NCBI RefSeq assembly: GCF_900184245.1
Contig: NZ_FXXB01000005.1
Span: forward strand, 1-64,000
Direction of reading: 5' to 3'
Length of the DNA: 64,000 nt
DNA from: Brachybacterium massiliense
GTDB lineage: Bacteria; Actinomycetota; Actinomycetes; Actinomycetales; Dermabacteraceae
Part shown: piece by piece, positions 1 through 47,234 of the stretch
Numbering within the stretch: position 1 is the stretch's first letter
Layout: each line of letters starts with the position of its first letter
Notes under the pieces: model-generated
Databases searched by the model: none
Told to the model about the DNA's origin: nothing
The model's input: the letters and a program-made list of their open reading frames with translations, nothing else
Program-made: the position numbers and the translations under genes

Positions 1-41
1 AAGGAGTATCGTCGGCAGCGTCAGAGGGGTATAAGAGACAG
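1..41 (+). other. Illumina Nextera (Tn5) adapter with i5 index, not genomic
   Basis: Bases 1-8 (AAGGAGTA) equal the Nextera i5 index listed as N/S507. Bases 9-22 (TCGTCGGCAGCGTC) are the read-1 adapter arm. Bases 23-41 (AGAGGGGTATAAGAGACAG) are the 19-bp Tn5 mosaic end with two T-to-G changes. Genomic sequence starts at 42, inside the permease gene, so the last codons and stop of that gene are replaced by adapter. Vector or adapter contamination at a contig end. Confidence 0.96.
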
Positions 42-983
42 CTTGATCGCCCCCGTGAGCACGCCCTTGGTGAAGAAGCGCTGCGCGAACGGGTAGACGA
101 TGAGGATCGGCACCGTGGCGACCACGACGATCGCCATCTGCACGGTCTGGGCGGGCGGGGCAGGACGGTCCGGCGCCTGGAGGTCGCTCATCGCATTGCC
201 CTGCACGACGTACTGGTTCAGCACCAGCTGGATCGGCCACTTGGTGGTGTCGTTGATGTACAGCAGCGCATTGAAGAACGAGTTCCAGTATCCGACGGCG
301 TAGAACAGCGCGATCACGGCCAGCACCGCCTTCGACAGGGGTAGCACGATGGATCCGAAGATCCTGAACTCGCTGGCCCCGTCGATGCGGGCGGATTCGA
401 GCAGCTCTTGCGGCAGCTCCATGAAGAAGTTGCGCATCACGATCATGTTGAACGCACTGATGAGCCCGGGAAGGATCAGCGCCCAGTAGCTGTCCAGCAG
501 CCCGAGCTCCTTGATGAGCAGGTAGTTCGGGATGATCCCGGCGCCGAAGAACATGGTGCACAGCACCAGCACCATCGCGCCCTTGGAGAAGGGGACGTCA
601 CGCGTGCGGGTCAGCCCGTAAGCGAGCATCGAGGTGAACAGCAGCGACAGCAGGGTGCCCACGATGGTGATCCCGGCGGTCACCATCAGCGACCTGGTCA
701 CCACGCCGCCGGCGAAGATCGACTCGTAGGCCGCGGTGGAGAAGGAGGTGGGGAAAAGCTGCCCCGAGGTCACCGATCTGCCGTCCGCGAAGGAGAACAT
801 GATGACGTACAAGAACGGGTAGAGCATCACCAGCACGATCACGGCGATGACGACGACCTTGAGGGCCTGCATCGTCGGGGAGGGCCGGTCCATCCAGGGC
901 GGTCGCCCGGAGGGCGCGCCCCGGGAGCGCCGTGCGGCACGGCCGGTCACGTCGGGGCGTGCGATCTGGTCGATGACGGCCAT
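42..983 (-). CDS. Carbohydrate ABC transporter permease, LplC/YtcP-like, 3'-truncated by adapter
   Basis: Inner-membrane subunit of a binding-protein-dependent sugar importer (family knowledge). The native part is 314 residues. The first membrane segment is at about 42-66, followed by further hydrophobic segments to about 300. The EAA loop that contacts the ATPase is at about 193-216 (ELLESARIDGASEF). The ATG at 983 has GGAGGG just upstream and shares one base with the stop of the partner permease (TGATG). Sequence reaches the conserved C-terminus (FFTKGVLTGAIK) and then enters adapter, so only a few residues should be missing. No ATPase gene lies nearby, as is common for LplABC-type importers that share an MsmK-type ATPase. 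Complete apart from its tail. Confidence 0.93.
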
Positions 984-1996
984 CAGTAGATCCCTCCGGT
1001 TCCGAGACGCTTCGCGATCCGATTCGCGAAAATGACGAGGATGGTGGCGATGACGCCCTTGAGCAGGCCGGCGGCTGCGGAGAGTCCCCAGTCGCCCCCT
1101 GCGATGCCGCGGAAGTACACGAACGTGTCCAGCACCTGGGCGGCGTTCGCGCCGACGGCGGGCTGCTGCAGCAGCAGCTGCTCGAAGCCGACGGTGAGCA
1201 CGTTGCCGACGGTGAGAATGAGCAGCAGGGAGATCACGGGCACCAGTCCCGGCAGGGTGATGTGCCACATGCGGCGCCAGCTGCCTGCGCCGTCGGTGGC
1301 CGCCGATTCGTAGAGCTCGGTGGGGATCGACGAGATCGCCGCGAAGAAGATGATCGTCCCCCATCCGACGTCCTTCCAGATCACCTGGCTGACCAGGAGG
1401 ATCTTGAAGGTCTCCGGGTTCGTCATGAGGTTGACGCCCTCGACCCCGATCATGTCGAAGAGCTGCGCGATCGGCCCGGCCCCGCCGAGGATCTTCTGCC
1501 AAATCGCGATGACAATGACCCAGGAGATGAAGTGCGGGAGGTAGACGACGGTCTGGATGATGCGCTTGATCCGCTCGCCCAGCAGGGAGTTCAGGAACAG
1601 CGCCAGGATGATCGGCGCGGGGAACGCGAACACGATCTGCAGGAACGAGATCACCAGGGTGTTGACCACCGCTCGCAGCACCTCGTCGTCCGTGAAGAGG
1701 TTCGCGAAGTTCTGCAGGCCCACCCACTGGGAGTCGAAGACTCCGCGGAAGGCGGAGTAGTCCTGGAAGGCGACCACGTTCCCCGCCAACGGCACGTACG
1801 CGAACAGGAGGAAGAACGCGACACCGGGCACGATGAACACGTACATCTGCCACTCGCGCTTCATCCGCTGCCACCGGGACCTGGTGCGAGGGCGCGATGC
1901 TCCACCCGCGCCGGGATTCGTGGGGCTCTCCTCGGGGACGCCGGCCACCGCCTGCTCGAGCGAGGGGGCTTCGGTGTCACGTGCTTCGATGCTCAT
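983..1996 (-). CDS. Carbohydrate ABC transporter permease, LplB-like
   Basis: A 337-residue membrane subunit that pairs with the adjacent LplC-like permease. A hydrophilic, basic N-terminus (1-50) precedes the first membrane segment at about 52-72. The EAA loop is at about 228-252 (ELYESAATDGAG, then RRMWHITLPGL). ATG at 1996 has GGAAGGAG upstream and overlaps the stop of the GH5 gene by four bases (ATGA), so the three genes are read as one translationally coupled operon. Its substrate is probably the product or target of the GH5 and GH3 enzymes; that link is inferred from neighbourhood only. Confidence 0.94.
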   Translation of the reverse strand: MSIEARDTEAPSLEQAVAGVPEESPTNPGAGGASRPRTRSRWQRMKREWQMYVFIVPGVAFFLLFAYVPLAGNVVAFQDYSAFRGVFDSQWVGLQNFANLFTDDEVLRAVVNTLVISFLQIVFAFPAPIILALFLNSLLGERIKRIIQTVVYLPHFISWVIVIAIWQKILGGAGPIAQLFDMIGVEGVNLMTNPETFKILLVSQVIWKDVGWGTIIFFAAISSIPTELYESAATDGAGSWRRMWHITLPGLVPVISLLLILTVGNVLTVGFEQLLLQQPAVGANAAQVLDTFVYFRGIAGGDWGLSAAAGLLKGVIATILVIFANRIAKRLGTGGIY

Positions 1997-3866: not shown

Positions 3867-3872
3867 CATTCC

Positions 3873-23623: not shown

Positions 23624-24673
23624 GCATGGGGCTTCACCTTCCACGACAACGACATCGTGCCCTTCGACGCCACCCCGCAGGAGCGTCAGCAGATCATCGA
23701 TGAGCTCAAGAAGGTCACCGAGGAGACCGGCCTGGTGATCGAGATGATCACCACCGACACCTTCGCCCACCCCGTCTTCAAGGACGGCGCCTTCACCTCC
23801 AACGACCGCTCTGTGCGCCGCTTCGGCCTGCGCAAGGTGCTCGCGAACGTGGACCTCGCCGCCGAGCTCGGCGCCACCACCTTCGTGATGTGGGGCGGCC
23901 GTGAGGGCTCCGAGTACGACGGCTCCAAGGACCTGCTCGCCGCCCACCAGCGCTACGCCGAGGGCGTCGACACCGTGGCCGGCTACATCAAGTCCAAGGG
24001 CTACGACCTGCGCATCGGCCTCGAGCCCAAGCCCAACGAGCCCCGCGGCAACATCTTCCTGCCCACCGTGGGCCACGCCCTCGCCTTCATCGAGCAGCTC
24101 GAGAACGGCGACATCGTGGGCATCAACCCCGAGACCGGCCACGAGCAGATGGCCACCCTGAACTACACCCACGGCCTCGCCCAGGCGCTGTGGGCGGACA
24201 AGCTCTTCCACATCGACCTCAACGGCCAGCACGGCCCGATGTACGACCAGGACCTCGTGTTCGGTCACGGCGACCTGATCAGCGCCTTCTTCACCGTGGA
24301 CCTGCTCGAGAACGGCTTCCCCTCGAAGCCGGGCGCCTACGAGGGTGCCCGCCACTTCGACTTCAAGCCCTCGCGCACCGAGCACGAGAAGGGCCAGTAC
24401 GACTCGGCCGCGGCGAACATGGAGATGTACCTGATGCTCAAGGAGCGCGCGCTCGCGTTCCGTCAGGACTCCGAGGTCCAGGAGGCGCTGAAGTACTCCG
24501 GCATCGAGGAGCTCGCCGAGCCCACCCTCGGCGAGGGCGAGACCCTCGAGGACCTCCTCGCGGACCGCTCCACCTTCGAGGAGTTCGACGCCGACAAGGC
24601 CGGCGAGCGCAACTACGGCTTCGTGCGCCTGCAGCAGCTGGCCATGCAGCACCTGCTGGGCTTCCGCGCCTGA
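23618..24673 (+). CDS. xylA: Xylose isomerase, 5'-truncated (right-arm copy)
   Basis: Mirror of the left-arm gene, same 351 residues; codons run in frame from CTC at 23618 to the stop at 24671. Upstream in frame is only the antisense of the other copy, so no genuine start codon exists here. Confidence 0.94.
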
Positions 24674-28262: not shown

Positions 28263-29084
28263 TCAGTCCTTCAGTCCGGAGCTGATGTCGGAGTTCATGA
28301 TCTGACGGCGGAACACCAGGAACAGCAGCACCATCGGGATCAGCGAGATCACCGAGGCGCCCAGCAGCACCGCCCAGTCGATGTTCTCAGCGCCCACGAT
28401 CGAGCGCAGAGCGATCTGCAGGGTGTACTTCTTCTGGTCGTTCAGCACCAGCAGCGGCCAGATGTAGTCGTTCCACCGCCACTGGAAGGAGAAGATCGCG
28501 AGCACCGCGATGATCGGACGGGCGATCGGGAGCATCAGGCGGAAGAAGATCCGGAACTCGCCCGCGCCGTCGATGCGGGCGGCCTGCAGCAGCTCGTCGG
28601 GGACCGTCAGGAAGAACTGACGGAACATGAAGATGCCGGTCGCCGTGATGATCGACGGGATGATGATGCCTGCCAGCGAGTTGTACAGCCCCAGCCCCAG
28701 GATCACCGCGAAGGTCGAGGGCATGATGACCTCGGTGGGAAGCATCGTGGTGACCAGGATCAGCAGGAAGAAGATCTGCACCAGGCGGTTGCGGTACTTC
28801 GCCAGGGCGAAGCCGGTGCACGCGCTGACGAACACCGTGAACACGGTGGAGACCACTGCGACGATCGCGGTGTTCAGGAAGTAGGTCTGGAAGTCGAAGC
28901 GGGTCCAGGCCGTCTGATACCCGCTGAGCGTCCAATCCTGCGGGAACAGTCGCAGCGGCCAGGTGAACAGCTCGCTGCCCGGCTTGAAGGAGCTCAGCAG
29001 GAACCACAGGACGGGGAACAGGAACAGCGCCGCGAGCGCCCACAGCAGGATGTTCGGCGCGATCTGACGCGCAGAGAAGCTCAC
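28263..29084 (-). CDS. Carbohydrate ABC permease, MalG class (right-arm copy)
   Basis: Identical 273-residue permease; GTG start overlapping the stop of the MalF-class gene by four bases. Confidence 0.94.
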   Translation of the reverse strand: MSFSARQIAPNILLWALAALFLFPVLWFLLSSFKPGSELFTWPLRLFPQDWTLSGYQTAWTRFDFQTYFLNTAIVAVVSTVFTVFVSACTGFALAKYRNRLVQIFFLLILVTTMLPTEVIMPSTFAVILGLGLYNSLAGIIIPSIITATGIFMFRQFFLTVPDELLQAARIDGAGEFRIFFRLMLPIARPIIAVLAIFSFQWRWNDYIWPLLVLNDQKKYTLQIALRSIVGAENIDWAVLLGASVISLIPMVLLFLVFRRQIMNSDISSGLKD

Positions 29085-30037
29085 TCGAGATCACTCCTGT
29101 CGAACCGCTTCTGGATGAGGGCGATGGCCAGCAGGATCACCATCAGCACCATCGAGGCGGCGCTCGCGTAGCCGATCTTGGACTGCTCGAAGCCGGTCTT
29201 GTAGATGTACTGGACGATCAGCACGTTCGAGGTGCCGGGGCCGCCTCCGTTGAGCGCCTGGATCATCGCGAACTCCTTCATCGCCCCGATCGTGCCCAGC
29301 AGGATCACCAGGAACGAGGTGGGACGCAGCAGCGGCCAGGTGATCCGGCGGAACCGTGTGAGGGGCCCGGCACCGTCGAGCGATGCCGCCTCGAGGTACG
29401 AGGCGGGGATGTTCCGCATCGCGGCCATGAACAGCAGCATCGAGAACGCGGTGCCGCCCCAGGAACCGGCGAGGATCACCACCACCAGGGCGAGGTTGGG
29501 ATCGGCGGCCCATTTCACCGGATTCAGGCCCGCGGAGGTGATCAGGTAGTTCACCAGGCCGAAGTTCTCCCCGAACAGCCACCGGAAGATGACGCCGGTG
29601 ACGATGGGGGAGACCAGCCAGGGGAAGAAGAAGATCACCTGGGCGAGGGCGGAGCCCTTGACGTCCTTGGACACCAGCAGCGCGCTGATGGTCAGGGACA
29701 GGAAATACCCGAAGGGCACCGCCACCACGGTGTACAGCACCGTGCGCAGCAGGCTCGAGTAGAACTCCTCGTCCGCGAACAGAGAGGTGTAGTTCTCCAC
29801 CCCCACGAACTCGGCCTCCCCGTATCCCCGGTAGTCGGTGAAGGAGTACAGGATGCCGAGCCCGGCCGGGCCCACGAAGAAGATCACGAACAGCACGATC
29901 GCCGGCAGCAGGAAGATCGTGGCGATGACCCCGCGCCGACGACGCTCACGCACGGCGTTGGGACGCCGCGCGCCGTCGCCGGCACGGACCGGCCGCGGGC
30001 CCGCGGCGGGGTCGCTCTGGGTGGTCATGGTGGACAT
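29081..30037 (-). CDS. Sugar ABC permease, MalF class (right-arm copy)
   Basis: Identical 318-residue permease with EAA loop; begins four bases after the binding-protein stop. Confidence 0.94.
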   Translation of the reverse strand: MSTMTTQSDPAAGPRPVRAGDGARRPNAVRERRRRGVIATIFLLPAIVLFVIFFVGPAGLGILYSFTDYRGYGEAEFVGVENYTSLFADEEFYSSLLRTVLYTVVAVPFGYFLSLTISALLVSKDVKGSALAQVIFFFPWLVSPIVTGVIFRWLFGENFGLVNYLITSAGLNPVKWAADPNLALVVVILAGSWGGTAFSMLLFMAAMRNIPASYLEAASLDGAGPLTRFRRITWPLLRPTSFLVILLGTIGAMKEFAMIQALNGGGPGTSNVLIVQYIYKTGFEQSKIGYASAASMVLMVILLAIALIQKRFDRSDLE

Positions 30038-30041
30038 GCGA

Positions 30042-31313
30042 TCAGGCGAGGCTCTCGTTGAGCTGCTCGAGCGCAGCGGTCACGGCGTCCGCAGCGGAGA
30101 TGTCCCCGGCGATCGCCTTGACCGCCTCGTCACGCACCGGATCTCCGCTGAGCGGAGCGGCGGTGCCGGCCGCCTGCAGCGCGAGGTCGCGCGACTTGAT
30201 CTCGCCCACGAAGGCGGGTGAGGCCGCGATCGCGGCGTTGTACAGGTCGAAATCCTCCTGACGGTCCTCGTAGCTGACCTCCACACCCTCGGTGGCGGGC
30301 AGGAACCCGGAGATCCGCGAGATCTCCGCGTAGTTCTCCGGGCTGTACAGCCACTTCACGAAGTCGAGCGCCTGCTGCTCCTGGCCCGTCCCCTCGAACA
30401 CCACGATCTGGGCGGCGGCACCGAAGTTCGTGGCCTGATCGGGCTGGGCCGGCATCGGCACGCTGACCCACTCGAAATCGGCGATGTTCGCGACGAAGTC
30501 CGCGATCTGCCACGAGCCCGAGTAATAGGCCGCGATCTGGCCGGTCTTGAACATGGCGTTGGGATCCTCCTCCGTCAGCCAGACGGAGCGCGGCATCACC
30601 TCGTCGTCATTCATCGCGACGAAGCGCTCGAGCGCCTCGACGGTCGCATCGTTCGCCTCGTACTGGGAGAGGTCCTCGTTCAGGCGCAGCCCCTCGGAGC
30701 CGTTCTGGTACAGGAACGAGTTCAGCCGGTGGGAGCTGCGGTCCATGACAAGAGAGAACCGGATGCCGTTCGCCTCGCGCACGCTGTTCGCGGACTCGAT
30801 GAACTCATCCCATGTCCACACATTATCGTCGAACGAAGTGGGGTACTCGACGCCGGCCTCGTCCCAGAGGTCCTTGTTGAGGAACATGCCGACGGCGGTG
30901 AGATCGCTCGGCAGCGCGGGGACCTTGCCCTCCTCGTCGCGTGCGTACATGCCCTCGATGGGCTTGACCTCGGCGGCGACCTCCGAGAGGTCCACCGTCC
31001 GATCCAGCCAGACGGGGTCGATCGAGGGCATGCGGCCGATCGCCGGGAGGTCGTTCGCCTTGGAGGCGTTGCGCACCTTGGTCTGCAGGTCATCGTAGGG
31101 AACATCGACGATCTCGATCTGGATCCCGGTCTCCTCGAGGTACTTCTCGGCCATCGCGGCGTAGCCACCGCCCTGGTTGGCGTCGCCGGAGAGCATGAAC
31201 TGGACCGGGGCGTCCGGGGAGGCGGAGGAGCCGCCTCCGCAGGCGGCGAGAGCGGGTGCCGCGGTGGCGGCGAGACCTGCGGCGAGCAGGGTGCGACGAT
31301 TCAGGCTGTGCAT
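30042..31313 (-). CDS. Sugar-binding lipoprotein (right-arm copy)
   Basis: Identical 423-residue binding protein with LAAC lipobox; ATG at 31313 preceded by GAGGAG. Confidence 0.94.
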   Translation of the reverse strand: MHSLNRRTLLAAGLAATAAPALAACGGGSSASPDAPVQFMLSGDANQGGGYAAMAEKYLEETGIQIEIVDVPYDDLQTKVRNASKANDLPAIGRMPSIDPVWLDRTVDLSEVAAEVKPIEGMYARDEEGKVPALPSDLTAVGMFLNKDLWDEAGVEYPTSFDDNVWTWDEFIESANSVREANGIRFSLVMDRSSHRLNSFLYQNGSEGLRLNEDLSQYEANDATVEALERFVAMNDDEVMPRSVWLTEEDPNAMFKTGQIAAYYSGSWQIADFVANIADFEWVSVPMPAQPDQATNFGAAAQIVVFEGTGQEQQALDFVKWLYSPENYAEISRISGFLPATEGVEVSYEDRQEDFDLYNAAIAASPAFVGEIKSRDLALQAAGTAAPLSGDPVRDEAVKAIAGDISAADAVTAALEQLNESLA

Positions 31314-31440: not shown

Positions 31441-31511
31441 TCCGTGGGTGAGTCGTGGAAGCGGTGGGCGGCACCTTTACGGCGGTGGATCTGCGGGTAG
31501 CATCCATGAGT

Positions 31512-31586
31512 GACACGGGGTGCCCCGACGGGGGCTGAGATCACACCCGGTGAACCTGATCGAGTTCGTACTCGCGGAGGGATGTC
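31512..31586 (+). promoter_or_regulatory. TPP riboswitch (right-arm copy)
   Basis: Easiest place to read the aptamer, as it is on the given strand. P1 GACA (31512-31515) pairs with TGTC (31583-31586). GGCTGAGA lies near 31533 and GAACCTGATC near 31552-31561. The -10 box TAGCAT is at 31498-31503, with CTTTAC 17 bases before it. Confidence 0.93.
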
Positions 31587-31844
31587 GTCGATGAGCTGTG
31601 TGCTGCCGCCATGCACGCCGTCGCCCCATGCATCGATCCTCGCTGCGCCGGCCTCGCCGCGCCGTCGGAGGAGGCGCCGCAGTGCGTCCGGGCCCCTTCG
31701 TGCAGACGGGCTCACCGGGGTCCGCCGGCGGATCCCCGTGTCCTCTTCCACGCGGCGCCGGCACTCGGCGTCGCTCCTTCCGCGATGTGCTCCCGCCCGC
31801 TGTGCGGCGGGCGTGCTCGCCGGCCCCGAAAGGACCTGTCGACC
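31587..31844 (+). promoter_or_regulatory. Leader between TPP riboswitch and SDR (right-arm copy)
   Basis: Hairpins at 31717-31737 and 31795-31812; mirror of 15391-15648, no gene seen. Confidence 0.45.
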
Positions 31845-32645
31845 ATGACCTCACCGACCACCGAGCAGACCTCCCGCCCCACGCCCGCCCTCGCCGAGCA
31901 GATCGTGCTGGTCACCGGCGGTGCCCGCGGCCTCGGGCGCGCACTCACCGAAGCTTTCCTGCACGAAGGGGCCCGGGTGGTCATCAACCACCTCACCAGC
32001 GAGGGCGCCGCACTCGAGCTCGCCGAGCGCCATCCGGGTCGTGCCGTCGCCGTGCGCGCCGACGTGCGGGACCGGGCCCAGGTCGAGGCCCTGTTCACGC
32101 AGGCCGAGGACGCCTTCGGCGCTCCTGTCGACACCGTCGTGAACAACGCTCTGACCGGCTTCTCCTTCAACGGCGACGCACGCGCCAAGGCGCACGAGAT
32201 CTCCTACGACGCCTTCTCCGCGCAGTTCTCCGGCGCGGTGCAGGGCGCTCTGAACACGATCCAGGCGGCGCTGCCCGGCTTCGCCCGGGCAGGTTCGGGG
32301 CGCGTCGTCAATGTCGGCACCAACCTGTTCCAGCACCCGGTCGTTCCGTATCACGACTACACCGCGGCGAAGGCGGCGCTGCTCGCGCTGACACGCACCT
32401 TCGCCGCCGACCTCGGCCCGCTCGGCATCACCGTGAACATGGTCAGCGGCGGGCTGCTGCGCACCACCGACGCGAGCGCCGCGACCCCCGAGGAGGTCTT
32501 CGACGCGATCGCCGCGGGAACCCCGCTGCAGTCGGTCACCACACCCGCGGAGTTCGCCGACGCCGCGCTCTTCTTCGCCTCTCCGTGGTCCCGGTCCGTG
32601 ACCGGGCAGAACCTTGTCGTCGACGGCGGGCTGGTGAAGGATTGA
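31845..32645 (+). CDS. SDR-family oxidoreductase (right-arm copy)
   Basis: Identical 266-residue SDR (TGGARGLG, YTAAK, Thr in the usual Ser position), riboswitch-controlled. Confidence 0.92.
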   Translation: MTSPTTEQTSRPTPALAEQIVLVTGGARGLGRALTEAFLHEGARVVINHLTSEGAALELAERHPGRAVAVRADVRDRAQVEALFTQAEDAFGAPVDTVVNNALTGFSFNGDARAKAHEISYDAFSAQFSGAVQGALNTIQAALPGFARAGSGRVVNVGTNLFQHPVVPYHDYTAAKAALLALTRTFAADLGPLGITVNMVSGGLLRTTDASAATPEEVFDAIAAGTPLQSVTTPAEFADAALFFASPWSRSVTGQNLVVDGGLVKD

Positions 32646-33973
32646 GGATCGCTGCGCCTCGCCGCCAGGTGCGGCTGAACCTGTTCGCCCATGCGTGCGG
32701 CCACCACGCCGCGGCCTGGCGGGCGCCGGGCTCCTCGGTATCGCGACTGGGTGACATCACGTACTGGGAGGGGCTCGCACGGATCGCGGAGCGCGGACGG
32801 CTCGATGCGATCTTCCTCGCCGACGGCCAGTCGATCGCGCCCGCCGGGGCCGAGCGCGGGCCGACATGGTTCCTGGAACCGATCACCGTGCTCACGGCGA
32901 TGGCCCGCGCCACCGCACGGATCGGGCTGGTCACGACGGTGTCGAGCACATTCTGGGACCCGTTCCACGCCGCTCGCCTGCTGGCGAGCCTCGACCACAT
33001 TTCCCACGGCCGGGCCGGGATCAACGTGGTCACCTCGATGACCGACGCGGAGGCTCGCAACCACGGCATGCCCGCGCTGCCCGATCATGCGAAGCGCTAC
33101 GCCACCGCGGGGGAGTTCATCGAGGTGCTCCAGGGCCTGTGGGATTCCTGGCCCGCTCAGAGCATCCTGGCCGATCCGGAGGGGGTGTACGTCGACTCGT
33201 CCCTGCTGCGACCGCCGCAGCATCGCGGTCAGTCCTTCGAGGTCGCCGGGCCGTTGAACGTGCCGACGCCGCCGCAGGTCCGCCCGGTGCTGTTCCAGGC
33301 TGGAGCCTCCGAACCGGGTCGCGATCTCGCCGCCCGCCACGCCGAGGGGATCTATGCGGTGGCCTGGGACCTCGAGTCCGCGCGCGCCTACCGCTCGGAC
33401 ATCCGCGCGCGGGCCGCCGCGCTGGGCCGCGACCCGGAGACGATCGCGGTGATGCCAGGCCTGGTCGTCCACGTGGCCTCGACCGAGGCGGAAGCCCGGC
33501 GGATACGCGCGGATCTCGACTCCCGCCTGCCGGTCGCGGATTCCCTGCGCCAGCTCTCCTTCTTCATCGGCCAGGACGCCTCAGGCTGGGAGCTCGACGC
33601 CTCCGTGCCACCGCTCCCGCCCCTCGAGGAGTTCACCGGCCCGAAGGGGCGCTATGCCACGGTGCTGCGCATCGTCGACTCTGTGCGACCGACGGTGCGT
33701 GAACTGCTGGGTCTGCTCGCCGCCGGTGGCGGCCACGCGACCGTCATCGGTACACCGGAGTCGGTGGCCGACGAGATCGAGCGCTGGGTCGACGCGGGAG
33801 CGGCCGACGGCTTCAATCTCATGCCGCCCACCCTCCCCGGCGGGATCACAGACTTCGTCGATCAGGTCGTGCCCGTACTGCAGCGGCGCGGCCGGTTCCG
33901 GCGCGAGTACGAGGGGACCACATTGCGGGAGCACCTGAGGTTGCCCGAGGTCAGGCCAGCGACTTCTCCGTGA
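32642..33973 (+). CDS. LLM-class flavin monooxygenase (right-arm copy)
   Basis: Identical 443-residue enzyme; TTG start at 32642 inside the SDR stop (TTGA). The frame is open upstream to 31598, giving a spurious 791-codon reading frame that is antisense-like in its first part and should not be used. Confidence 0.9.
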   Translation: MRIAAPRRQVRLNLFAHACGHHAAAWRAPGSSVSRLGDITYWEGLARIAERGRLDAIFLADGQSIAPAGAERGPTWFLEPITVLTAMARATARIGLVTTVSSTFWDPFHAARLLASLDHISHGRAGINVVTSMTDAEARNHGMPALPDHAKRYATAGEFIEVLQGLWDSWPAQSILADPEGVYVDSSLLRPPQHRGQSFEVAGPLNVPTPPQVRPVLFQAGASEPGRDLAARHAEGIYAVAWDLESARAYRSDIRARAAALGRDPETIAVMPGLVVHVASTEAEARRIRADLDSRLPVADSLRQLSFFIGQDASGWELDASVPPLPPLEEFTGPKGRYATVLRIVDSVRPTVRELLGLLAAGGGHATVIGTPESVADEIERWVDAGAADGFNLMPPTLPGGITDFVDQVVPVLQRRGRFRREYEGTTLREHLRLPEVRPATSP

Positions 33974-36900
33974 TGATGTCGACGGGTGTGGCGGCGCGCT
34001 CGATGTCGTGCAGCACCGTGATGACCGCATCGGCCTCCGCCTCGTCCGGGAACACGATGTCGATGCGGGTCGCGGCCCTGTCCTCGTAGGGCGACTGGAA
34101 CAGGCGCTCGGGCCGCATCTCGCCGCGCCGGGTGAGCTCGTCGATCACCATCGTCAGAAACTCCATCTGCGCTGAGTTCAGGCCGCCCAGGGCGATCTTC
34201 TCGGCGAAGGCTGACTCGGCGGCTGCGCGGTCCAGGCCGACGAGCGAGCGGACGAACACTCCGAGGCCCCGTTCGCCGCTGAGCGCCGCCAGCGCCTCGG
34301 GGGTGCCGTCTCCCTGTTCGACGAGGATCCGCTCGAGCTCACTGAGATCCGTCTCGGTCAGCGGCAGGTTGCGGCGCAGACGCTGGATCGCGACGTGATC
34401 GCGGTGCTCACGGATGTACGCGGTGACCTTCTCCCGGAACCTGGCCTGGTCCACGCCCACGGCGACCAGCGGAAGGTCGGCGGAGCGGGCCTCGCCGAGG
34501 TCGTCCTCGAAGTCGGTCACCACGCTCCAGCGTCGGTGTGCGTCGAGGAACTGCGCCAGGGAGCGCAGCTCTCGGCGGGCTCGCTCCAGCATCGCGAGGG
34601 TGACCCCCTCCCACCAGTCCTCGCCCGCGACCTCCTGCAGCAGAGCGGCTGCGGTGGCGACCTGGGGGATCGTCTGCTTCTCGAGCAGCTGAGAGGCGAC
34701 CTCCTGCACCGCTGAGCGAGTGCGCTCGGCCAGGGCCTCGTCTCCCTCGAGCTGGGCGAGCTCGCGACGCAGCACGAGCAGGTCGAAGCGTTTGGCGTGC
34801 TCGTCCTCTGTGGTGCCGGCCGAGGGCAGGGACCCCAGGGACTCTGCGGCATCCTCCGCGTCGATCCTGCCGAGCGGCGCCGCCCAGCCCTCGGGACGCG
34901 AGTACCGCGAGATCGCCTCGCCATGCCTGCGCGCGAGGAAGGAGTGGGTGGGGATGCCGCCCACGAACTCGCTCAGCCATTCCACCGCGCCCTCCCGCAC
35001 CTGCAGGTCCCCTGCGGTGAGGTCGATGCCGGCCACGATCCGGGCGCGGGTGGCGAACAGTCGATGGGACAGCGGCTTCTGCACGCTCGAGGCGCGGTCC
35101 GCGGGGTCCTGCCCGAAGTACTCCACGTTGCCGCAGAAGTCGAAGACGCGGAACCCGGTCTTGTCGGCTCCGTCCCCGTGGGCGTCAGGGCACAGCCGGG
35201 TGCCGCGCCCGATCATCTGCCAGAACTTGGTTTTGGAGAGCACCTGCTTGAACAGCACCAGGTTCAGCACCTCGGGGACATCGATCCCAGTGTCGAGCAT
35301 GTCCACGCTGATCGCGATGTGCGGGGCCCGGTCGCTGATCGAGAAGGACTCGATGAGGTCCTGCGCATAGGCGGAGTCGCTGGTGATCACCTGGGCGAAG
35401 TCTCCGCCCAGATGTGGGTACTGGGCGTCGAAGCGCTCCTTGAGGAACTGGGCGTGGCGCTGGTTCATCGCGAACACGATGGTCTTGCCGAGACGGTCGC
35501 CGCCGGCCACGTGGTGGCCGGCGCGCATCAGCTCGGCGAGGGCCTTGTCCGCGGTGTCGGCGTTGAACAGGGAGCGGAACACGCGCGGCGCCTCGACCGC
35601 GGTGGGCATCTCCTCCACCGGGTCGGAGTCCTCGCCCTCGTCCCAGTCGATCTCCTCCCACTGCTCCTTCTCCTCTTCGGAGAGCTGGTCGTAGCGGATG
35701 CCGCTGCGGTGGAAGCCGAGGTCGTAGACGAGGTTCTCCGGGCCCACGAGATAGCCCTCGCCGATGGCCTCCTCCAGCGGGTAGGAGTCGGTTGGCACGC
35801 CGGGCTCGAGCTCGAAGAGGCGGTAGGTGCTGCGGGCGATGTCATCGACCGGGGTGGCGGTCAGTCCCAGCAGCAGGCCGTCGAACCAGTCGAACAGGGC
35901 TCCGTACTTCTGGTAGGCGGAGCGGTGGGCCTCATCGATGATCACCAGGTCGAAATAGCCCGGGCCGAAGCGTCGCCCGCCGCCGTCGCGCGCCGCATCG
36001 ACGAGGTTCATCATCGTGGGATAGGTGGCCAGGTGGACGCGCGCCTCGGAGTGCTTGTCCGAGGTGAGGTCGATGCTCGTCACACCCGGTAACAGCTTCG
36101 AGAACGCCTTGTGCGCCTGGCGCACTAGGGCGGTGCGGTCGGCGAGGAACAGCACGCGCTTGGCCCAACCGCGCTCCATCAGCTGGTCCACCAGGGCGAT
36201 CGCGGTGCGGGTCTTGCCGGTTCCGGTTGCCATGACCAGCAGGGCACGGCGCTGACGGGCGTCGAAGTGCGCTCCCACCTTCGCGATCGCTCGCTGCTGG
36301 TACGGGCGACCGGCGATCTCCGCGTCGACGCCCGCGCTGCTCAGCGGGCGGCGTTGCGTACGTCGGTGGTGGAGCTGCTCGAGCTCGCCGCGGGTGTAGA
36401 ACCCTTCGATCGCACGGGCGGGGTAGCCGGGAGCACCGTTCCAGGGTGCATCGTCCCAGATCTCGTGCTGCCGGCCATTGGTCAGGAAGATGATCGGCCG
36501 CCGACCGAACTTGCGCTCGAGAGCGTCGGCGTAGAGCTGGGCCTGGCGGGCGCCGACGGAGGGGTCACGGCTGGTGCGCTTGGCCTCGACGAGGCCGAGC
36601 GGCCGGCCGTCCTCTCCCCACAGCACGTAGTCGACCCTGCCGGTGCCGCTCTCGTTGACCCCCGGCAGGACGGGGAGCCCGTCCACGGGGTACTCGCGAT
36701 TCTCGGGGTTCTCCAGGGCCCATCCCGCATCGCGCAGCTGCTCGTCGATGAGGTCGTTGCGGGTCTCGTCCTCGCGGTAGTCGTGGGTGTCGGCGGCGGT
36801 GTCGGCTGCCTTTGCGTCGGCGATCTGCTTCCGCAGCGCCTCGAGCTCCTCCTCCAGGGCGGAGAGCTTGTCATCGCGCTCGGCGATCTCGCGCCGGGAG

Positions 36901-37391
36901 GTCTCCTGCTGCTCGGTGAAGCGCTTCACCAGCTTGGCGAGCTCGGCGGGGCCGAGCGGGGCGCGCTTCTGAACGATGGAGACGTCGAAGGCGGTGCCCA
37001 GTGGTGCGGCCTCGGGGAATGTGGACTGGTGCTTGACCGTCCAGACGATCACGTCGAAGAGATCCCGCAGTGTGGCGACGCCCTCCTGGCGGGAGAGTCG
37101 ACGGTTGCCGTGCGCAGCGTCGTTGCCGCGCCGGCGCAGGAGGTTCAGCTGATTGTTGATGGCGTAGGTGCGGTTCTTGAACGCCGGGTCGTTCATCCGG
37201 GCGCTGAGGTCCGAGCGGTAGCCCTCAGGCAGCCCGAACACGTCCACGAAGAGGTACTCGACGACCTTCTCCACCGCGACGCGAGCATGGAAGGCGGCGC
37301 TGTCGGGGTCGGAGAGGGCGTAGGACTCGGCGCGCTGGCACACGTCGAACAGCTCCGGCCACTGCCCCCGGATGAATCCGAAGTTGCTCAC
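33951..37391 (-). CDS. hsdR: Type I restriction endonuclease subunit R (right-arm copy)
   Basis: Identical 1146-residue HsdR; GTG at 37391, 3' overlap of 23 bases with the monooxygenase gene. Confidence 0.96.
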   Translation of the reverse strand: MSNFGFIRGQWPELFDVCQRAESYALSDPDSAAFHARVAVEKVVEYLFVDVFGLPEGYRSDLSARMNDPAFKNRTYAINNQLNLLRRRGNDAAHGNRRLSRQEGVATLRDLFDVIVWTVKHQSTFPEAAPLGTAFDVSIVQKRAPLGPAELAKLVKRFTEQQETSRREIAERDDKLSALEEELEALRKQIADAKAADTAADTHDYREDETRNDLIDEQLRDAGWALENPENREYPVDGLPVLPGVNESGTGRVDYVLWGEDGRPLGLVEAKRTSRDPSVGARQAQLYADALERKFGRRPIIFLTNGRQHEIWDDAPWNGAPGYPARAIEGFYTRGELEQLHHRRTQRRPLSSAGVDAEIAGRPYQQRAIAKVGAHFDARQRRALLVMATGTGKTRTAIALVDQLMERGWAKRVLFLADRTALVRQAHKAFSKLLPGVTSIDLTSDKHSEARVHLATYPTMMNLVDAARDGGGRRFGPGYFDLVIIDEAHRSAYQKYGALFDWFDGLLLGLTATPVDDIARSTYRLFELEPGVPTDSYPLEEAIGEGYLVGPENLVYDLGFHRSGIRYDQLSEEEKEQWEEIDWDEGEDSDPVEEMPTAVEAPRVFRSLFNADTADKALAELMRAGHHVAGGDRLGKTIVFAMNQRHAQFLKERFDAQYPHLGGDFAQVITSDSAYAQDLIESFSISDRAPHIAISVDMLDTGIDVPEVLNLVLFKQVLSKTKFWQMIGRGTRLCPDAHGDGADKTGFRVFDFCGNVEYFGQDPADRASSVQKPLSHRLFATRARIVAGIDLTAGDLQVREGAVEWLSEFVGGIPTHSFLARRHGEAISRYSRPEGWAAPLGRIDAEDAAESLGSLPSAGTTEDEHAKRFDLLVLRRELAQLEGDEALAERTRSAVQEVASQLLEKQTIPQVATAAALLQEVAGEDWWEGVTLAMLERARRELRSLAQFLDAHRRWSVVTDFEDDLGEARSADLPLVAVGVDQARFREKVTAYIREHRDHVAIQRLRRNLPLTETDLSELERILVEQGDGTPEALAALSGERGLGVFVRSLVGLDRAAAESAFAEKIALGGLNSAQMEFLTMVIDELTRRGEMRPERLFQSPYEDRAATRIDIVFPDEAEADAVITVLHDIERAATPVDIITEKSLA

Positions 37392-37640
37392 TGCCGCCCT
37401 CCTCGGTCGCTTCCCAGGTCAGAGTGTATCGACGGGGTGCGACGGCGGGGAATGTCGGAGGGTAGGGAGACGCGACGTCGAAGGGGTGGCCCACCGACTG
37501 CTTCTCGATCGAGCGTGCTTCTCGCTACGGGAAACACGGTAAACCGAGAAACGATGCTGGTGGGCGCCGCCTTGCAGGCATCTCCCGTGAGTCCACGAGA
37601 ACCCTTCTGTTGCAGACGGTTACGGCGTAACATGATACTC
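37392..37640. promoter_or_regulatory. Divergent hsdR/antitoxin control region (right-arm copy)
   Basis: TTACGGCGTAA at 37620-37630, CTCGATCGAG at 37504-37513; mirror of 9595-9843. Confidence 0.55.
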
Positions 37641-38234
37641 ATGAGCAGCGCGACGCATGACTTCACGGCTCGCCTGGAGGACGCCTTGGACCGGCGAGGC
37701 AATCCTCTGAGCGTCGACGCGCTCCTGGACCTCCTGCGCGAGGCCAGCGATGCCACCTCGGAGTCGCTCTCCGCAGGGGAGCGGGAGTTCCTGCTGGAGA
37801 ACACGGACCTCACGGAGGAGGATCTGACTCCCACGGCGCGCACCCTCTCGCAGAGCCGCGTCGCACGGGACAGGGCGGCGGCGCAGGAGCAGGTGCACAG
37901 CGCCTCGCTCAGCACGGCGGAGGTCGCGACGCTCCTCGAGCGACATGAGGCGAGCATCCGGCGGTCGAAGGCGACGGGCGATCTGTATGCGCTGCCGAGC
38001 AGCGGGGGGCGCACGACTCGATTCCCGCACTGGCAGTTCGACGACGGGGAGGTGGTTCCGGGGCTGCGCGCGATCATCCCGGCGTTCCCGCAGTACACGC
38101 ACCCTCTGTCGATCCAGCGCTTCATGACGACGCCGAACGAGTCGCTCGATCAGCGGTCTCCCGTGCGATGGCTGCTCGACGGGGGACAGGTGGACGCTGT
38201 GGTCTCACTGGTCGACGAGCTCGGCTACGAGTGA
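37641..38234 (+). CDS. Antitoxin of RES toxin (right-arm copy)
   Basis: Identical 197-residue Xre/MbcA/ParS-like antitoxin. The frame is open far upstream (36267), but those residues are antisense to hsdR and not part of the gene. Confidence 0.83.
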   Translation: MSSATHDFTARLEDALDRRGNPLSVDALLDLLREASDATSESLSAGEREFLLENTDLTEEDLTPTARTLSQSRVARDRAAAQEQVHSASLSTAEVATLLERHEASIRRSKATGDLYALPSSGGRTTRFPHWQFDDGEVVPGLRAIIPAFPQYTHPLSIQRFMTTPNESLDQRSPVRWLLDGGQVDAVVSLVDELGYE

Positions 38235-38875
38235 ACTCGGCGCACGCGAAGAATCCCCGCCGCCCGTCGGTTCCGCTCACACTCCCGGACGGCACCGTCG
38301 CCTCGTTCGGCGGGCCGCTGTGGAGGATCCATGCGGTGGCCGGAAGGCACCCGATGGCGTGGGACGAGCTGCGATGGAACGGGCCGATCCGCAGCAACCG
38401 CTGGGACCCGCAGGCAGGTCCGCTCTCCGTCCGCTCCGTAGCCGGCGTCTCCTACACGGCACCCGCCTACACCACGGCCTTCGCCGAGCTCTTCCAACGG
38501 GACCGGGCGATCACCCTCACCGCCGAACGAGCCTTGTCCGGTTGGCGCCCATCGCGACCCCTGGACCTGCTGAACCTGATCGGCGGGGAGGGGAACGGGG
38601 ACTGGGCCGTGCGCCACGGAGCGTCCGCCTCGCTCCCGCAGGCCTCGAAAGACATCTGCCGTGCGTGGGCCGCGGCCATCCATGACCAGCTGGGAGATCG
38701 CCTCGACGGGCTGCTGGTCCCCTCGACGGTCACCGGCGACCCGGTGATCGTGCTCTTCTCCCGCTCGGTCGCTGCCTTCCCCGCCGCGCCCAGCTTCTCC
38801 CGCAACCTTGAGCACGCTGATGTGCTGACGCTCGCCGCGCGGGTGCGGGAGCGCCTGGGGTGGTCGATCCGCTGA
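38231..38875 (+). CDS. RES-domain toxin (right-arm copy)
   Basis: Identical 214-residue RES toxin; GTG at 38231 overlapping the antitoxin stop. Confidence 0.88.
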   Translation: MNSAHAKNPRRPSVPLTLPDGTVASFGGPLWRIHAVAGRHPMAWDELRWNGPIRSNRWDPQAGPLSVRSVAGVSYTAPAYTTAFAELFQRDRAITLTAERALSGWRPSRPLDLLNLIGGEGNGDWAVRHGASASLPQASKDICRAWAAAIHDQLGDRLDGLLVPSTVTGDPVIVLFSRSVAAFPAAPSFSRNLEHADVLTLAARVRERLGWSIR

Positions 38876-38919
38876 CCGGCGCGCCGGAGAGCGGTGGTCC
38901 AGCCGTCGGCCGCCGGTCA
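38873..38919. terminator. Shared hsdS/RES hairpin (right-arm copy)
   Basis: Arms 38873-38881 and 38911-38919, each containing one gene's stop codon. Confidence 0.5.
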
Positions 38920-39996
38920 GAGCTCGCCGCGGAACGCTCGATGCTGGAGCGCGGCGAACAGCTCCTCGTCGGCTTCGAGCGCCTTGGCGACGCGGTCGCG
39001 CTCAGCGCGGATCTCCCTAAGAGCGTCGGCGAAGGACTCTTGAGCTTCGAGAGGTGGCAGCCGGATTGGGACTCCAGATATCCGTGCACCGTTAATTGAA
39101 GGCTGGCCGGACTGGGCTGAATACTGATTCAGGTCTGCAGACCGGAGTGCATATTCCAGGTATGAGATATCAACGTCAGGGCGCAGGATCTCGGCGACTA
39201 ATGCATTATCGGTAACCCAAGAGTTTGGTCGTGTTACGTGCACGGCGCCACAGTTCGCCCCAACTCTCCCGACTATCAGTCGGCGCGGCTTGTGCATGGC
39301 GCGGTCGTGAGTGCCAGTGATTCCATTGCCGCCATATACGGGGACGTCACCTCCTGCTTGCTTAGAGGCTGGTAAGAATTTTCCGCTCGACCAGCGAGCA
39401 ATATCGCTGAGTGGAATGGTTGGGTGCGTATTGTTGGTGTTGGCGAACCGCTGGTGGAACAACTCCAGCGGGAGCTTGTCGAGGTGGCTGAGCTGGGTTC
39501 GGCGCTTCGCGCGGATCGCGTCGGCCTCGTCGAGGATTGAGGCGATGCGGCGCTGTTCTTCGATGGGTGGGAGCGGCACTGTGAAAGATAAAAGCTCCGC
39601 CGGACTCAGCCGAGGTAGATTTGCGCCAGAGGCTCGTGACGAAGCGAGTGATACCATTGACGGCTGACGTAGGTAATGAAGTAGGTAGTGTCGGGTTAGG
39701 CGCTCTCCGGGCAGGACTGGGAGGATATCTGTGCTGCAGACCCCGTGCCTGGTAGGGTTGGCTACCTTGACTAAGTTCGGTCGCAACTTTCCGTACAAAA
39801 TGTGCCGCGTATCGAAGTGGAACTTGTTGCTGGACAGCTGTGCATCGCCCACAGTGCTTGAAGCGATGATCTCCCCGCCGCGCGCGATATGCTCGAGCCC
39901 GAGATAGTAAGTCGATTCGGGAAGGTTGCGCGGGTTAACTGTGGCGCGGTCAATCGTCGCGACGTCACCGAGTTTTTCTCTGGCCCACTTGCTCAC
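38917..39996 (-). CDS. hsdS: Type I specificity subunit (right-arm copy)
   Basis: Identical 359-residue HsdS; the A+T-rich recognition-domain stretches lie at about 39030-39435 and 39570-39980. Confidence 0.94.
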   Translation of the reverse strand: MSKWAREKLGDVATIDRATVNPRNLPESTYYLGLEHIARGGEIIASSTVGDAQLSSNKFHFDTRHILYGKLRPNLVKVANPTRHGVCSTDILPVLPGERLTRHYLLHYLRQPSMVSLASSRASGANLPRLSPAELLSFTVPLPPIEEQRRIASILDEADAIRAKRRTQLSHLDKLPLELFHQRFANTNNTHPTIPLSDIARWSSGKFLPASKQAGGDVPVYGGNGITGTHDRAMHKPRRLIVGRVGANCGAVHVTRPNSWVTDNALVAEILRPDVDISYLEYALRSADLNQYSAQSGQPSINGARISGVPIRLPPLEAQESFADALREIRAERDRVAKALEADEELFAALQHRAFRGEL

Positions 39997-41465
39997 CCCA
40001 GCGCCTCCCGCAGCCGCGCCACACCCTCGGCGATCTCGCCGTTCAGCCGTTCGACGTCGGCGAGGATGTCCGCTGTCGGGCGGTGCTCGATCTCCTCGTG
40101 CTCGATCTCCTTGTAGCGGTTGATCGAGAGGTCGTAGCCCTCGGCGACGATGTCCGCCTTCGGCACCAGGAAGCTCTGATCAGTGCGGGCGCGATCTCGT
40201 TCGCCGTCGAGGTTCTGCCAGCGGGCCAGCACGTCGGGCAGATCGTCGTCGGTGATCTTGGTGCGCTTGTCATCGAGCGAGAAGCCGTCGGCCGTGACGT
40301 CGTAGAACCAGACGTCCTCCGTGCCGCCGGCGCCCGTCTTCGTGAAGAACAGGATCGCGGTGGAGACCCCGGCGTACGGCTTGAACACCCCCGAGGGCAG
40401 CTTCACCACCGCGTCGAGCTTGTGGTTCTCGACCAGGGACCTCCGCAGATCCTTGTGCGCCTTCGAGGAGCCGAACAGCACGCCGTCCGGAACGATCACC
40501 GCGGCGCGACCACCCGTCTTCAGCAGGCGCAGGAAGAGGGCCAGGAACAGCAGCTCCGTCTTCTTCGTCTTCACCACGCTCTGGAGGTCCTTGCTCGTCT
40601 CCTCGTAGTTGAGTGACCCGGCGAAGGGCGGATTCGCGAGGATCATCGTGTACCGCGAGGCCTCACCCGCCGCCCCCTCGGACAGCGAGTCGCGGTACTC
40701 GATCTTCGCGGAGCCCACCCCGTGCATCAGCATGTTCATGCTGCCGATCCGCAGCATCGTCGTATCGAAGTCGAAGCCGTGGAACATCGCCGGAGCCCGG
40801 CCCGGGGTCTGGGCGCGGTCGATCAGGGCGTCACCGTGGTGCGTGCGCACGTACTCGCCCGCGGCCATCAGGAAGCCGGCCGTGCCGCATGCGGGGTCGC
40901 AGACCACGTCCTGCGCGGTGGGGGCCATCATGTCGACCATCAGCGAGATGATGTGCCGTGGGGTGCGGAACTGGCCGTTGGTGCCGGAGGTCGCGAGCTT
41001 CGAGAGCAGGTACTCGTAGAGGTCCCCGTTGGTGTCCCGATCATCCAGAGGGATCTCGTCGAGCATGTCCACGACCCTGCTCAGCAGCCCGGCGCTGGGG
41101 ATCGTGTAGCGAGCCCCGGCCATGTGCTCGCCGTATGAGCTGGTCGCACCATCCGGCGTGTCTCCGAGCGACCGCAGGAACGGGAACACCTCGTCACCCA
41201 TGAGGCGGTGCATCTCCGCGGTGTCGGTCATCACCTTGATCTTCGACCAGCGCAGGTGCGAGGTCCCCTCCGGGAACGGCATGGGGGTGCTGGTGCGACC
41301 CAGACGGCGCAGCTCGCGCTCTGCTCGCATCTGCTGTTCGTCCAGCTGGCGCATGAACAGCAGGTAGGTGACCTGCTCGATCACCTCGAGCGGGTTCGAG
41401 ATGCCTCCGGACCAGAAGGCGTCCCAGACGCGGTCCACGCGGTTCTTCAGTTCTCCCGTGATCAC
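39993..41465 (-). CDS. hsdM: Type I methyltransferase subunit (right-arm copy)
   Basis: Identical 490-residue HsdM with GTG at 41465; overlaps hsdS by four bases. Confidence 0.95.
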   Translation of the reverse strand: MITGELKNRVDRVWDAFWSGGISNPLEVIEQVTYLLFMRQLDEQQMRAERELRRLGRTSTPMPFPEGTSHLRWSKIKVMTDTAEMHRLMGDEVFPFLRSLGDTPDGATSSYGEHMAGARYTIPSAGLLSRVVDMLDEIPLDDRDTNGDLYEYLLSKLATSGTNGQFRTPRHIISLMVDMMAPTAQDVVCDPACGTAGFLMAAGEYVRTHHGDALIDRAQTPGRAPAMFHGFDFDTTMLRIGSMNMLMHGVGSAKIEYRDSLSEGAAGEASRYTMILANPPFAGSLNYEETSKDLQSVVKTKKTELLFLALFLRLLKTGGRAAVIVPDGVLFGSSKAHKDLRRSLVENHKLDAVVKLPSGVFKPYAGVSTAILFFTKTGAGGTEDVWFYDVTADGFSLDDKRTKITDDDLPDVLARWQNLDGERDRARTDQSFLVPKADIVAEGYDLSINRYKEIEHEEIEHRPTADILADVERLNGEIAEGVARLREALG

Positions 41466-41619
41466 CCGAGCGAGTCTATGTGCGTCCTCCGACCGGTGAG
41501 TGCCGTGCCTTCGTCGCGACGGAGCGTGCTCCCCGTGCACCTCGGCACCGGGCCGTTGCCCGATCGTGATCGTCGACCTCTGGCGGATCGTCGCGCGGCG
41601 TGTAGAGTCCCTCGACATG

Positions 41620-44066: not shown

Positions 44067-45242
44067 ATGACGGGACAGGACTACTACCGACGTGAGGGTG
44101 ATCGCATCCGCGCTCCCGAGGGGGCGCTGCCCTTCGAGCGCGGCATGGGGCTCGGGGGCTGGCTGCTCCCGGAGGGCTACATGTGGGACCTCGAGGGGCC
44201 TGCGGACTCCCCGCGGCGCATGGAGCAGCTCGTCGCCGAGCTGATCGGTCCGGTCACCGGCGCCGAGTTCTGGGAGGAGTACCGCGCACGGTTCATCACG
44301 GCACAGGACATCGCCGAGATCGCCGCCGCCGGTTTCGACCATGTGCGACTGCCGATGAACGCCCGGGGGATCTTCGACGGGGACGAGCTGATCGAGGAGG
44401 GCATCGCGCACGTCGATCGCGCGATCTCCTGGTGCCGCGAGGCCGGGATCAGCTGCGTGCTCGACCTCCACGGGGCACCGGGCGGTCAGACCGGAGCGAA
44501 CATCGACGACTCCCCGCACCGGCTTCCCGAGCTCTTCACCGACCCGGCCGCCTACCGCCAGGGCCTGCGGCTGTGGGAGCTGCTCGCGCAGCGCTACGCC
44601 GAGGAGACGACCGTGAGCGCCTACGACCTCCTCAACGAGCCGCTGCCGCAGAAGCACGAGTCCCTCGTGCCCCGGCTCGCGGACTTCTACCGCGACGTCA
44701 TCGCCGTGATCCGTGCGGAGGACCCCCATCACCTCCTCTCGATCGAGGGCTGGAACTGGGCCACACGCTTCGAGGGGATCGATCGGCTCTGGGACGAGAA
44801 CGCCTGCCTGCACTTCCACAAGTACTGGTCGGAGCCCACCACCCGGAGCATCCAGCAGTATCTCGACCTGCGGGAGCGCCTGGGCCTGCCCCTGTGGATG
44901 GGGGAGAGCGGCGAGAACGACGACCGGTGGTACGCCGAGGCGTTCTCGCTGTTCGCACAGCACGGCATCCCCTGGACCTTCTGGACCTGGAAGAAGATCG
45001 ACCGCGACACCTCGCCGCGGATCATCCCGTCACCGGACAGGTGGGAGGAGATCAGGCAGTTCGCCGCCGGACGTGGGCCCAGACCGCCGCGCGCGCACGA
45101 GATCTTCGAGCAGCTCCTCGAGAACGTCGCGGCCTCGAGATGCACGGTGCGTGCCGCCGTGCTCGACGCCCTCCCGGGGATCGCCGCCGCCCCGTCCGTC
45201 CACCGGATCCCCGGCGTGCTGCAGGAAGGAGCGAACCGATGA
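44067..45242 (+). CDS. GH5-like glycosidase (right-arm copy)
   Basis: Identical 391-residue enzyme (Glu191 and Glu280), overlapping the LplB-like gene by four bases. Confidence 0.9.
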   Translation: MTGQDYYRREGDRIRAPEGALPFERGMGLGGWLLPEGYMWDLEGPADSPRRMEQLVAELIGPVTGAEFWEEYRARFITAQDIAEIAAAGFDHVRLPMNARGIFDGDELIEEGIAHVDRAISWCREAGISCVLDLHGAPGGQTGANIDDSPHRLPELFTDPAAYRQGLRLWELLAQRYAEETTVSAYDLLNEPLPQKHESLVPRLADFYRDVIAVIRAEDPHHLLSIEGWNWATRFEGIDRLWDENACLHFHKYWSEPTTRSIQQYLDLRERLGLPLWMGESGENDDRWYAEAFSLFAQHGIPWTFWTWKKIDRDTSPRIIPSPDRWEEIRQFAAGRGPRPPRAHEIFEQLLENVAASRCTVRAAVLDALPGIAAAPSVHRIPGVLQEGANR

Positions 45243-46252
45243 GCATCGAAGCACGTGACACCGAAGCCCCCTCGCTCGAGCAGGCGGTGGCCGGCGTCCC
45301 CGAGGAGAGCCCCACGAATCCCGGCGCGGGTGGAGCATCGCGCCCTCGCACCAGGTCCCGGTGGCAGCGGATGAAGCGCGAGTGGCAGATGTACGTGTTC
45401 ATCGTGCCCGGTGTCGCGTTCTTCCTCCTGTTCGCGTACGTGCCGTTGGCGGGGAACGTGGTCGCCTTCCAGGACTACTCCGCCTTCCGCGGAGTCTTCG
45501 ACTCCCAGTGGGTGGGCCTGCAGAACTTCGCGAACCTCTTCACGGACGACGAGGTGCTGCGAGCGGTGGTCAACACCCTGGTGATCTCGTTCCTGCAGAT
45601 CGTGTTCGCGTTCCCCGCGCCGATCATCCTGGCGCTGTTCCTGAACTCCCTGCTGGGCGAGCGGATCAAGCGCATCATCCAGACCGTCGTCTACCTCCCG
45701 CACTTCATCTCCTGGGTCATTGTCATCGCGATTTGGCAGAAGATCCTCGGCGGGGCCGGGCCGATCGCGCAGCTCTTCGACATGATCGGGGTCGAGGGCG
45801 TCAACCTCATGACGAACCCGGAGACCTTCAAGATCCTCCTGGTCAGCCAGGTGATCTGGAAGGACGTCGGATGGGGGACGATCATCTTCTTCGCGGCGAT
45901 CTCGTCGATCCCCACCGAGCTCTACGAATCGGCGGCCACCGACGGCGCAGGCAGCTGGCGCCGCATGTGGCACATCACCCTGCCGGGACTGGTGCCCGTG
46001 ATCTCCCTGCTGCTCATTCTCACCGTCGGCAACGTGCTCACCGTCGGCTTCGAGCAGCTGCTGCTGCAGCAGCCCGCCGTCGGCGCGAACGCCGCCCAGG
46101 TGCTGGACACGTTCGTGTACTTCCGCGGCATCGCAGGGGGCGACTGGGGACTCTCCGCAGCCGCCGGCCTGCTCAAGGGCGTCATCGCCACCATCCTCGT
46201 CATTTTCGCGAATCGGATCGCGAAGCGTCTCGGAACCGGAGGGATCTACTGA
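45239..46252 (+). CDS. LplB-like permease (right-arm copy)
   Basis: Identical 337-residue permease, coupled on both sides. Confidence 0.94.
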   Translation: MSIEARDTEAPSLEQAVAGVPEESPTNPGAGGASRPRTRSRWQRMKREWQMYVFIVPGVAFFLLFAYVPLAGNVVAFQDYSAFRGVFDSQWVGLQNFANLFTDDEVLRAVVNTLVISFLQIVFAFPAPIILALFLNSLLGERIKRIIQTVVYLPHFISWVIVIAIWQKILGGAGPIAQLFDMIGVEGVNLMTNPETFKILLVSQVIWKDVGWGTIIFFAAISSIPTELYESAATDGAGSWRRMWHITLPGLVPVISLLLILTVGNVLTVGFEQLLLQQPAVGANAAQVLDTFVYFRGIAGGDWGLSAAAGLLKGVIATILVIFANRIAKRLGTGGIY

Positions 46253-47193
46253 TGGCCGTCATCGACCAGATCGCACGCCCCGACGTGACCGGCCGTGCCG
46301 CACGGCGCTCCCGGGGCGCGCCCTCCGGGCGACCGCCCTGGATGGACCGGCCCTCCCCGACGATGCAGGCCCTCAAGGTCGTCGTCATCGCCGTGATCGT
46401 GCTGGTGATGCTCTACCCGTTCTTGTACGTCATCATGTTCTCCTTCGCGGACGGCAGATCGGTGACCTCGGGGCAGCTTTTCCCCACCTCCTTCTCCACC
46501 GCGGCCTACGAGTCGATCTTCGCCGGCGGCGTGGTGACCAGGTCGCTGATGGTGACCGCCGGGATCACCATCGTGGGCACCCTGCTGTCGCTGCTGTTCA
46601 CCTCGATGCTCGCTTACGGGCTGACCCGCACGCGTGACGTCCCCTTCTCCAAGGGCGCGATGGTGCTGGTGCTGTGCACCATGTTCTTCGGCGCCGGGAT
46701 CATCCCGAACTACCTGCTCATCAAGGAGCTCGGGCTGCTGGACAGCTACTGGGCGCTGATCCTTCCCGGGCTCATCAGTGCGTTCAACATGATCGTGATG
46801 CGCAACTTCTTCATGGAGCTGCCGCAAGAGCTGCTCGAATCCGCCCGCATCGACGGGGCCAGCGAGTTCAGGATCTTCGGATCCATCGTGCTACCCCTGT
46901 CGAAGGCGGTGCTGGCCGTGATCGCGCTGTTCTACGCCGTCGGATACTGGAACTCGTTCTTCAATGCGCTGCTGTACATCAACGACACCACCAAGTGGCC
47001 GATCCAGCTGGTGCTGAACCAGTACGTCGTGCAGGGCAATGCGATGAGCGACCTCCAGGCGCCGGACCGTCCTGCCCCGCCCGCCCAGACCGTGCAGATG
47101 GCGATCGTCGTGGTCGCCACGGTGCCGATCCTCATCGTCTACCCGTTCGCGCAGCGCTTCTTCACCAAGGGCGTGCTCACGGGGGCGATCAAG
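46252..47193 (+). CDS. LplC-like permease, 3'-truncated by adapter (right-arm copy)
   Basis: The same 314 native residues end at AIK (47193). The frame then runs through adapter (LSLIPIRRCRR) into downstream DNA to 47274. Those last 26 residues are artefactual. Confidence 0.93.
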
Positions 47194-47234
47194 CTGTCTC
47201 TTATACCCATCAGACGCTGCCGACGATACTCCTC
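47194..47234 (-). other. Nextera adapter embedded inside the contig
   Basis: CTGTCTCTTATAC, then CAGACGCTGCCGACGA and TACTCCT, is the reverse complement of the mosaic end, read-1 arm and i5 index. It has two changes in the mosaic end and one in the index. It splits the permease gene from the GH3 gene. Translated frames across it give the familiar contaminant peptides (VSYTHQTLPT, SSAASDGYKRQ). Confidence 0.96.

Follow-up and report, generated by a model that had tools for sequence, protein, structure and literature searches.

The first 47 kb of contig C4 in the assembly of Brachybacterium massiliense (GCF_900184245.1; 3,865,488 bases in eight contigs) read as a mirror image about a single point, which raises the question of whether the chromosome carries two inverted copies of the same genes or the assembly has written one copy twice. 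The window analysed here is a stretch of 64,000 nucleotides, position 1 of which is position 1 of this contig (289,748 bases). A zero-spacer palindrome spans positions 27-47208, with arms of 23,591 bases that have 0 mismatches and meet at 23617/23618. Among the centres tested (23500-23749), this is the sole zero-spacer one with an arm longer than 8 bases. Adapter accounts for the 15 bases at the outer end of each arm, leaving a genomic share of 23,576 bases on either side (42-23617 and 23618-47193). Zero-spacer palindromes of at least 16 bases number four in the 40,383 bases of 23618-64000, a rarity that leaves chance as no explanation for arms of 23,591 bases.

The initial annotation had described the genes of 42-23617 as mirrored in 23618-47193, with Nextera adapter at both outer ends. 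The former coordinates proved correct to the base, and the latter claim was confirmed by a search with a 33-base pattern of the Nextera read-1 side, which aligned with two mismatches at each end (window 9-41 and 47194-47226). The octamer outside each adapter is presumably an Illumina i5 index. The left adapter forms the start of the contig and the right one is internal, with ordinary sequence resuming after 47234. Between the two adapter stretches of 41 bases there are three differences, so at least some of the building or polishing was done separately for each arm, which counts against an artefact. The features of the window are collected in Table 1.

Table 1. Features of the window, with the reading preferred here for each segment
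Feature	Position	Strand	Evidence or remark
Nextera i5-side adapter, index-like octamer in front	1-41	+	Begins at first base of C4; 31/33 match at 9-41
Left arm, probable surplus reverse-complement copy of 23618-47193	42-23617	-	Exact mirror; outer side is adapter and contig end
Pivot, almost certainly a false join	23617-23618		Inside xylA; 53 xylA bases missing between C3 end and 23618
Right arm, probable authentic chromosomal copy	23618-47193	+	Colinear with G010 at both ends; middle of about 10 kb unmatched
xylA, codons 47-397	23618-24673	+	TIGR02631 above cut-off; gene start lies in C3
Xylulokinase gene xylB	24908-26299	+	TIGR01312 above cut-off
Sugar-type ABC transporter, two permeases and solute-binding protein	28263-31313	-	PF00528 twice, PF13416
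Type I restriction-modification genes hsdR, hsdS, hsdM	33951-41618	-	Domain search
hsdR	33951-37391	-	
RES-domain gene	38168-38875	opposite to hsd genes	
hsdS	38917-39996	-	
hsdM	39993-41618	-	
Open frame, 3' half an ABC transporter permease, end cut by adapter	45361-47193	+	PF00528 at residues 440-605
Nextera i5-side adapter	47194-47234	-	Replaces permease-gene end and spacer before next gene; 31/33 match at 47194-47226
Probable true continuation of right arm, opening with glycoside hydrolase family 3 (GH3) gene (frame ends 49676)	47235-64000	+	G010 match 44086-49639; GH3 domains

The xylA sequence to the right of the pivot covers model positions 44-382 of the 382 in TIGR02631 and lacks positions 1-43, and the opposite side of the centre carries the antisense of the same gene rather than the absent first codons. 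In six of six relatives examined, xylA runs uninterrupted across the corresponding site. The start of the gene is found in the same assembly as the last bases of contig C3, which stops in codon 29. By arithmetic on the alignments, the gap between the C3 end and 23618 comes to 53 bases in all six relatives, with 0-2 unaligned bases extrapolated (three base shifts). The 85 bases of C3 counted from the ATG, together with these 53, make 46 codons, and adding the 351 codons of the window restores an in-frame gene of 397 codons. Among the relatives measured, xylA has 397 codons in three of five, 412 in one and 418 in one; the count of 412 used an ATG 15 codons upstream and becomes 397 from the same Met. 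The in-frame halves and the 53-base gap therefore indicate that C3 and position 23618 are chromosomal neighbours between which 53 bases were lost. Moreover, among the matches listed for 38 genomes of the genus, the pivot region occurs as two complete copies in inverted orientation in this genome alone; none of the 37 relatives, some of which are drafts, shows a second such copy in its listed matches.

Synteny in a closed relative, which had been suggested at the outset as a check, was examined with G010, a genome closed as one contig and the only one compared with the whole right arm. Homologues of the C3 end, the right arm and positions 47235-49639 lie there in one direction and in that order. 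A single alignment spans window positions 44086-49639 and runs straight through the adapter at 47194-47234, and in place of the adapter G010 has the last part of the permease gene with its stop codon, followed by the spacer that precedes a GH3 gene. The possibility that the right adapter marks a second false join, between unrelated contigs, was rejected on this colinearity. The comparison of the continuation reaches 49639. Among the matches listed, G010 is the only one of 37 relatives in which permease and GH3 gene adjoin within a single match; in the rest of the listed relatives either the permease portion or the hydrolase portion is matched, which speaks neither for nor against the junction. 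For window positions 31444-41610, about 10 kb with the type I restriction genes, there is no G010 match among alignments longer than 250 bases. The adapter-cut permease itself was missed by a Pfam scan at an E-value limit of 1e-8, and its PF00528 domain was found in a further scan. From these sequence comparisons we conclude that 23618-47193 and the sequence from 47235 onwards are probably authentic and adjacent, and that 1-23617 is surplus, the last junction resting on one genome, G010.

A second palindrome occurs elsewhere in the assembly. Contig C8 (12,872 bases) is its own reverse complement, with arms of 6,436 bases. In an inverted-repeat screen of 15 kb at each of 13 contig ends and of the whole of C8, C8 was palindromic and the others contained only short inverted repeats of 34-147 bases. 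The pivot of C8 carries a piece of an ABC-2 type permease gene, and recR has only two matches in the genome, which are its two C8 copies. In G010, the homologue of the C8 arm is flanked by the 5' portion of dnaX on one side and by an ABC transporter region on the other; a piece of C8 without a family match is named here as the 3' portion of dnaX from G010 synteny only. In the genome itself, the dnaX and ABC ATPase flanks are 47 bases apart (C3:1197910-1197957), and between them is a sequence with a single mismatch to the twelve-base transposon end of the adapter. The closure of these flanks over an adapter-like remnant, in addition to the restriction of recR to C8, indicates that a 6.4-kb piece was omitted from C3 and written twice as C8. 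The presence of two palindromes in the assembly, and of adapter at or close to the faults tied to them, suggests a single procedural error and not two separate biological events.

Adapter is also present at other sites of the assembly. It occurs with an index at C1:287894, where it presumably also includes the start of the flow-cell adapter, partially at C1:661856, and in C3 at 1302439, at 518610 (degenerate) and at 1287774 (i7 side), with single N bases near the last of these. Contig C6 terminates on both sides in long stretches of G alone or of G mixed with C, which we take to resemble the dark-cycle output of two-colour sequencing machines. The right ends of C2, C4 and C7 and the left ends of C3 and C5 share about 5.3 kb at an identity of at least 99.7%, and a scan of the C3 and C4 ends among these showed a full 16S-23S-5S rRNA operon in each; these contigs thus run through the repeat.

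Altogether, the sequence comparisons argue that the first 47 kb are almost certainly an assembly artefact and not a real feature. The initial annotation had read them in this way, and its reading gains support from the xylA start on C3, the colinearity with G010, the adapter elsewhere and the palindromic C8. Its advice that the genes of 1-47234 be counted once likewise stands, with the right arm taken as authentic and the left arm as surplus. The argument it had drawn from hairpin-processing nucleases is plausible, though weaker than the synteny evidence. We propose that a contig whose first base was 23618, within xylA, became fused to its reverse complement, an event that would have produced the surplus left arm (1-23617), and that untrimmed Nextera read-through was carried into contig ends, where it would cap the surplus copy (1-41) and fill 47194-47234 in the true copy. 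The true order would then be C3, ending in xylA codon 29, followed by the 53 lost bases and by the window from 23618 onwards.

A natural origin of the mirror would have to accommodate the same observations. A read-through hairpin telomere would give a zero-spacer palindrome, so a hairpin-ended linear replicon read through its closed end would yield the form seen here, and an inverted plasmid dimer may be considered along with it; however, the pivot lies inside xylA with the rest of the gene at the C3 end, and G010, which is a single contig, is colinear with the arm; both observations make such a replicon vanishingly improbable. A real inverted duplication of the chromosome, which would arise at a short palindrome when an end is capped by a hairpin and then replicated, and which some or all of the cultured cells would carry, has a precedent in E. 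coli lacking SbcCD and RecA, in which large inverted duplications are described at a 246-bp interrupted palindrome (PMC3315005). The likeness lies in a large inverted duplication about a centre; the E. coli case is a real rearrangement in a background without SbcCD and RecA (PMC3315005), whereas here both the two parts of xylA and the adapter at the outer end speak against one. Such an event would break xylA, yet the start of the gene survives in frame at the C3 end, 53 bases from the pivot, and the sequence once beside the centre was neither lost nor displaced but ends there, 53 bases short. Moreover, the outer end of the left arm is adapter at the contig start and not chromosome, and the assembly holds a second whole-contig palindrome, C8, whose source site is closed over an adapter-like remnant. 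A real duplication is accordingly very unlikely, and it is extremely unlikely that part of the culture carried real palindrome-centred inverted amplifications at the xylA and recR loci that were then assembled in inverted form. The natural inverted duplication, the hairpin-ended replicon and the inverted plasmid dimer were all rejected on these respective grounds.

Within the artefact reading, the step at which the fold arose can be placed either in the assembly or before it. We infer that the join was either the assembler's own or taken by it from a chimeric read that folds back on itself; a self-complementary contig end could have overlapped its own reverse complement, or such a read could have bridged the pivot. 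The trigger was perhaps a short natural palindrome in the true sequence at the pivot, as judged from relatives. Palindromes of at least 10 bases occur at the xylA pivot in 7 of 12 Brachybacterium rows and in 14 of 41 rows over all genera, and a palindrome of 12 bases occurs at the C8 pivot in two of eight rows, compared with 93 of 40,383 bases in this sequence; these counts exclude rows with a match starting after query base 12, rows close to the edge of a contig, and rows duplicating a 50-base stretch found in another. The pivot palindrome is absent from the remaining 27 of 41 rows for xylA and 6 of 8 for C8. Since the genome's own sequence beyond both pivots is lost, the argument for this trigger stays indirect.

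That the fold-back molecules had formed at a short natural palindrome before assembly, while the library was prepared or amplified, and were then followed by the assembler is quite possible, though somewhat short of probable. In its favour, some relatives carry palindromes of 10-14 bases at the pivots, palindromic chimeric reads are reported from endonuclease-fragmented libraries (PMC10908179), and artificial palindromes from whole-genome amplification have been tied to inverted duplications in an assembly (PMC6218980). Against it stand the majority of rows without a pivot palindrome and the missing sequence past both pivots, with which a natural palindrome is not demonstrable in this genome. 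The artificial palindromes of PMC6218980 resemble the present case in being method-made inverted copies of real sequence, but they come from whole-genome amplification and long reads, whereas here the assembly is full of Nextera adapter and the cause is a proposed one. The chimeric library reads of PMC10908179 may share with it a pivot at a short palindrome, but they are reported from human targeted sequencing and not as 23-kb contig arms.

An origin of the mirror in the assembly bears on the use of this genome. Stretches of 23.6 kb and 6.4 kb are written twice, xylA is split and short of 53 bases, adapter truncates a permease gene, and recR seems to be present twice and outside its site in C3; its apparent second copy may account for part of the listed contamination of 4.05%. 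In practice, positions 1-23617 should be discarded and 47194-47234 treated as a gap. As the genome belongs to a one-genome-per-species collection, its errors can spread into comparative data, and such cases would come to light in a screen for contigs identical to their reverse complement and for internal adapter sequence.
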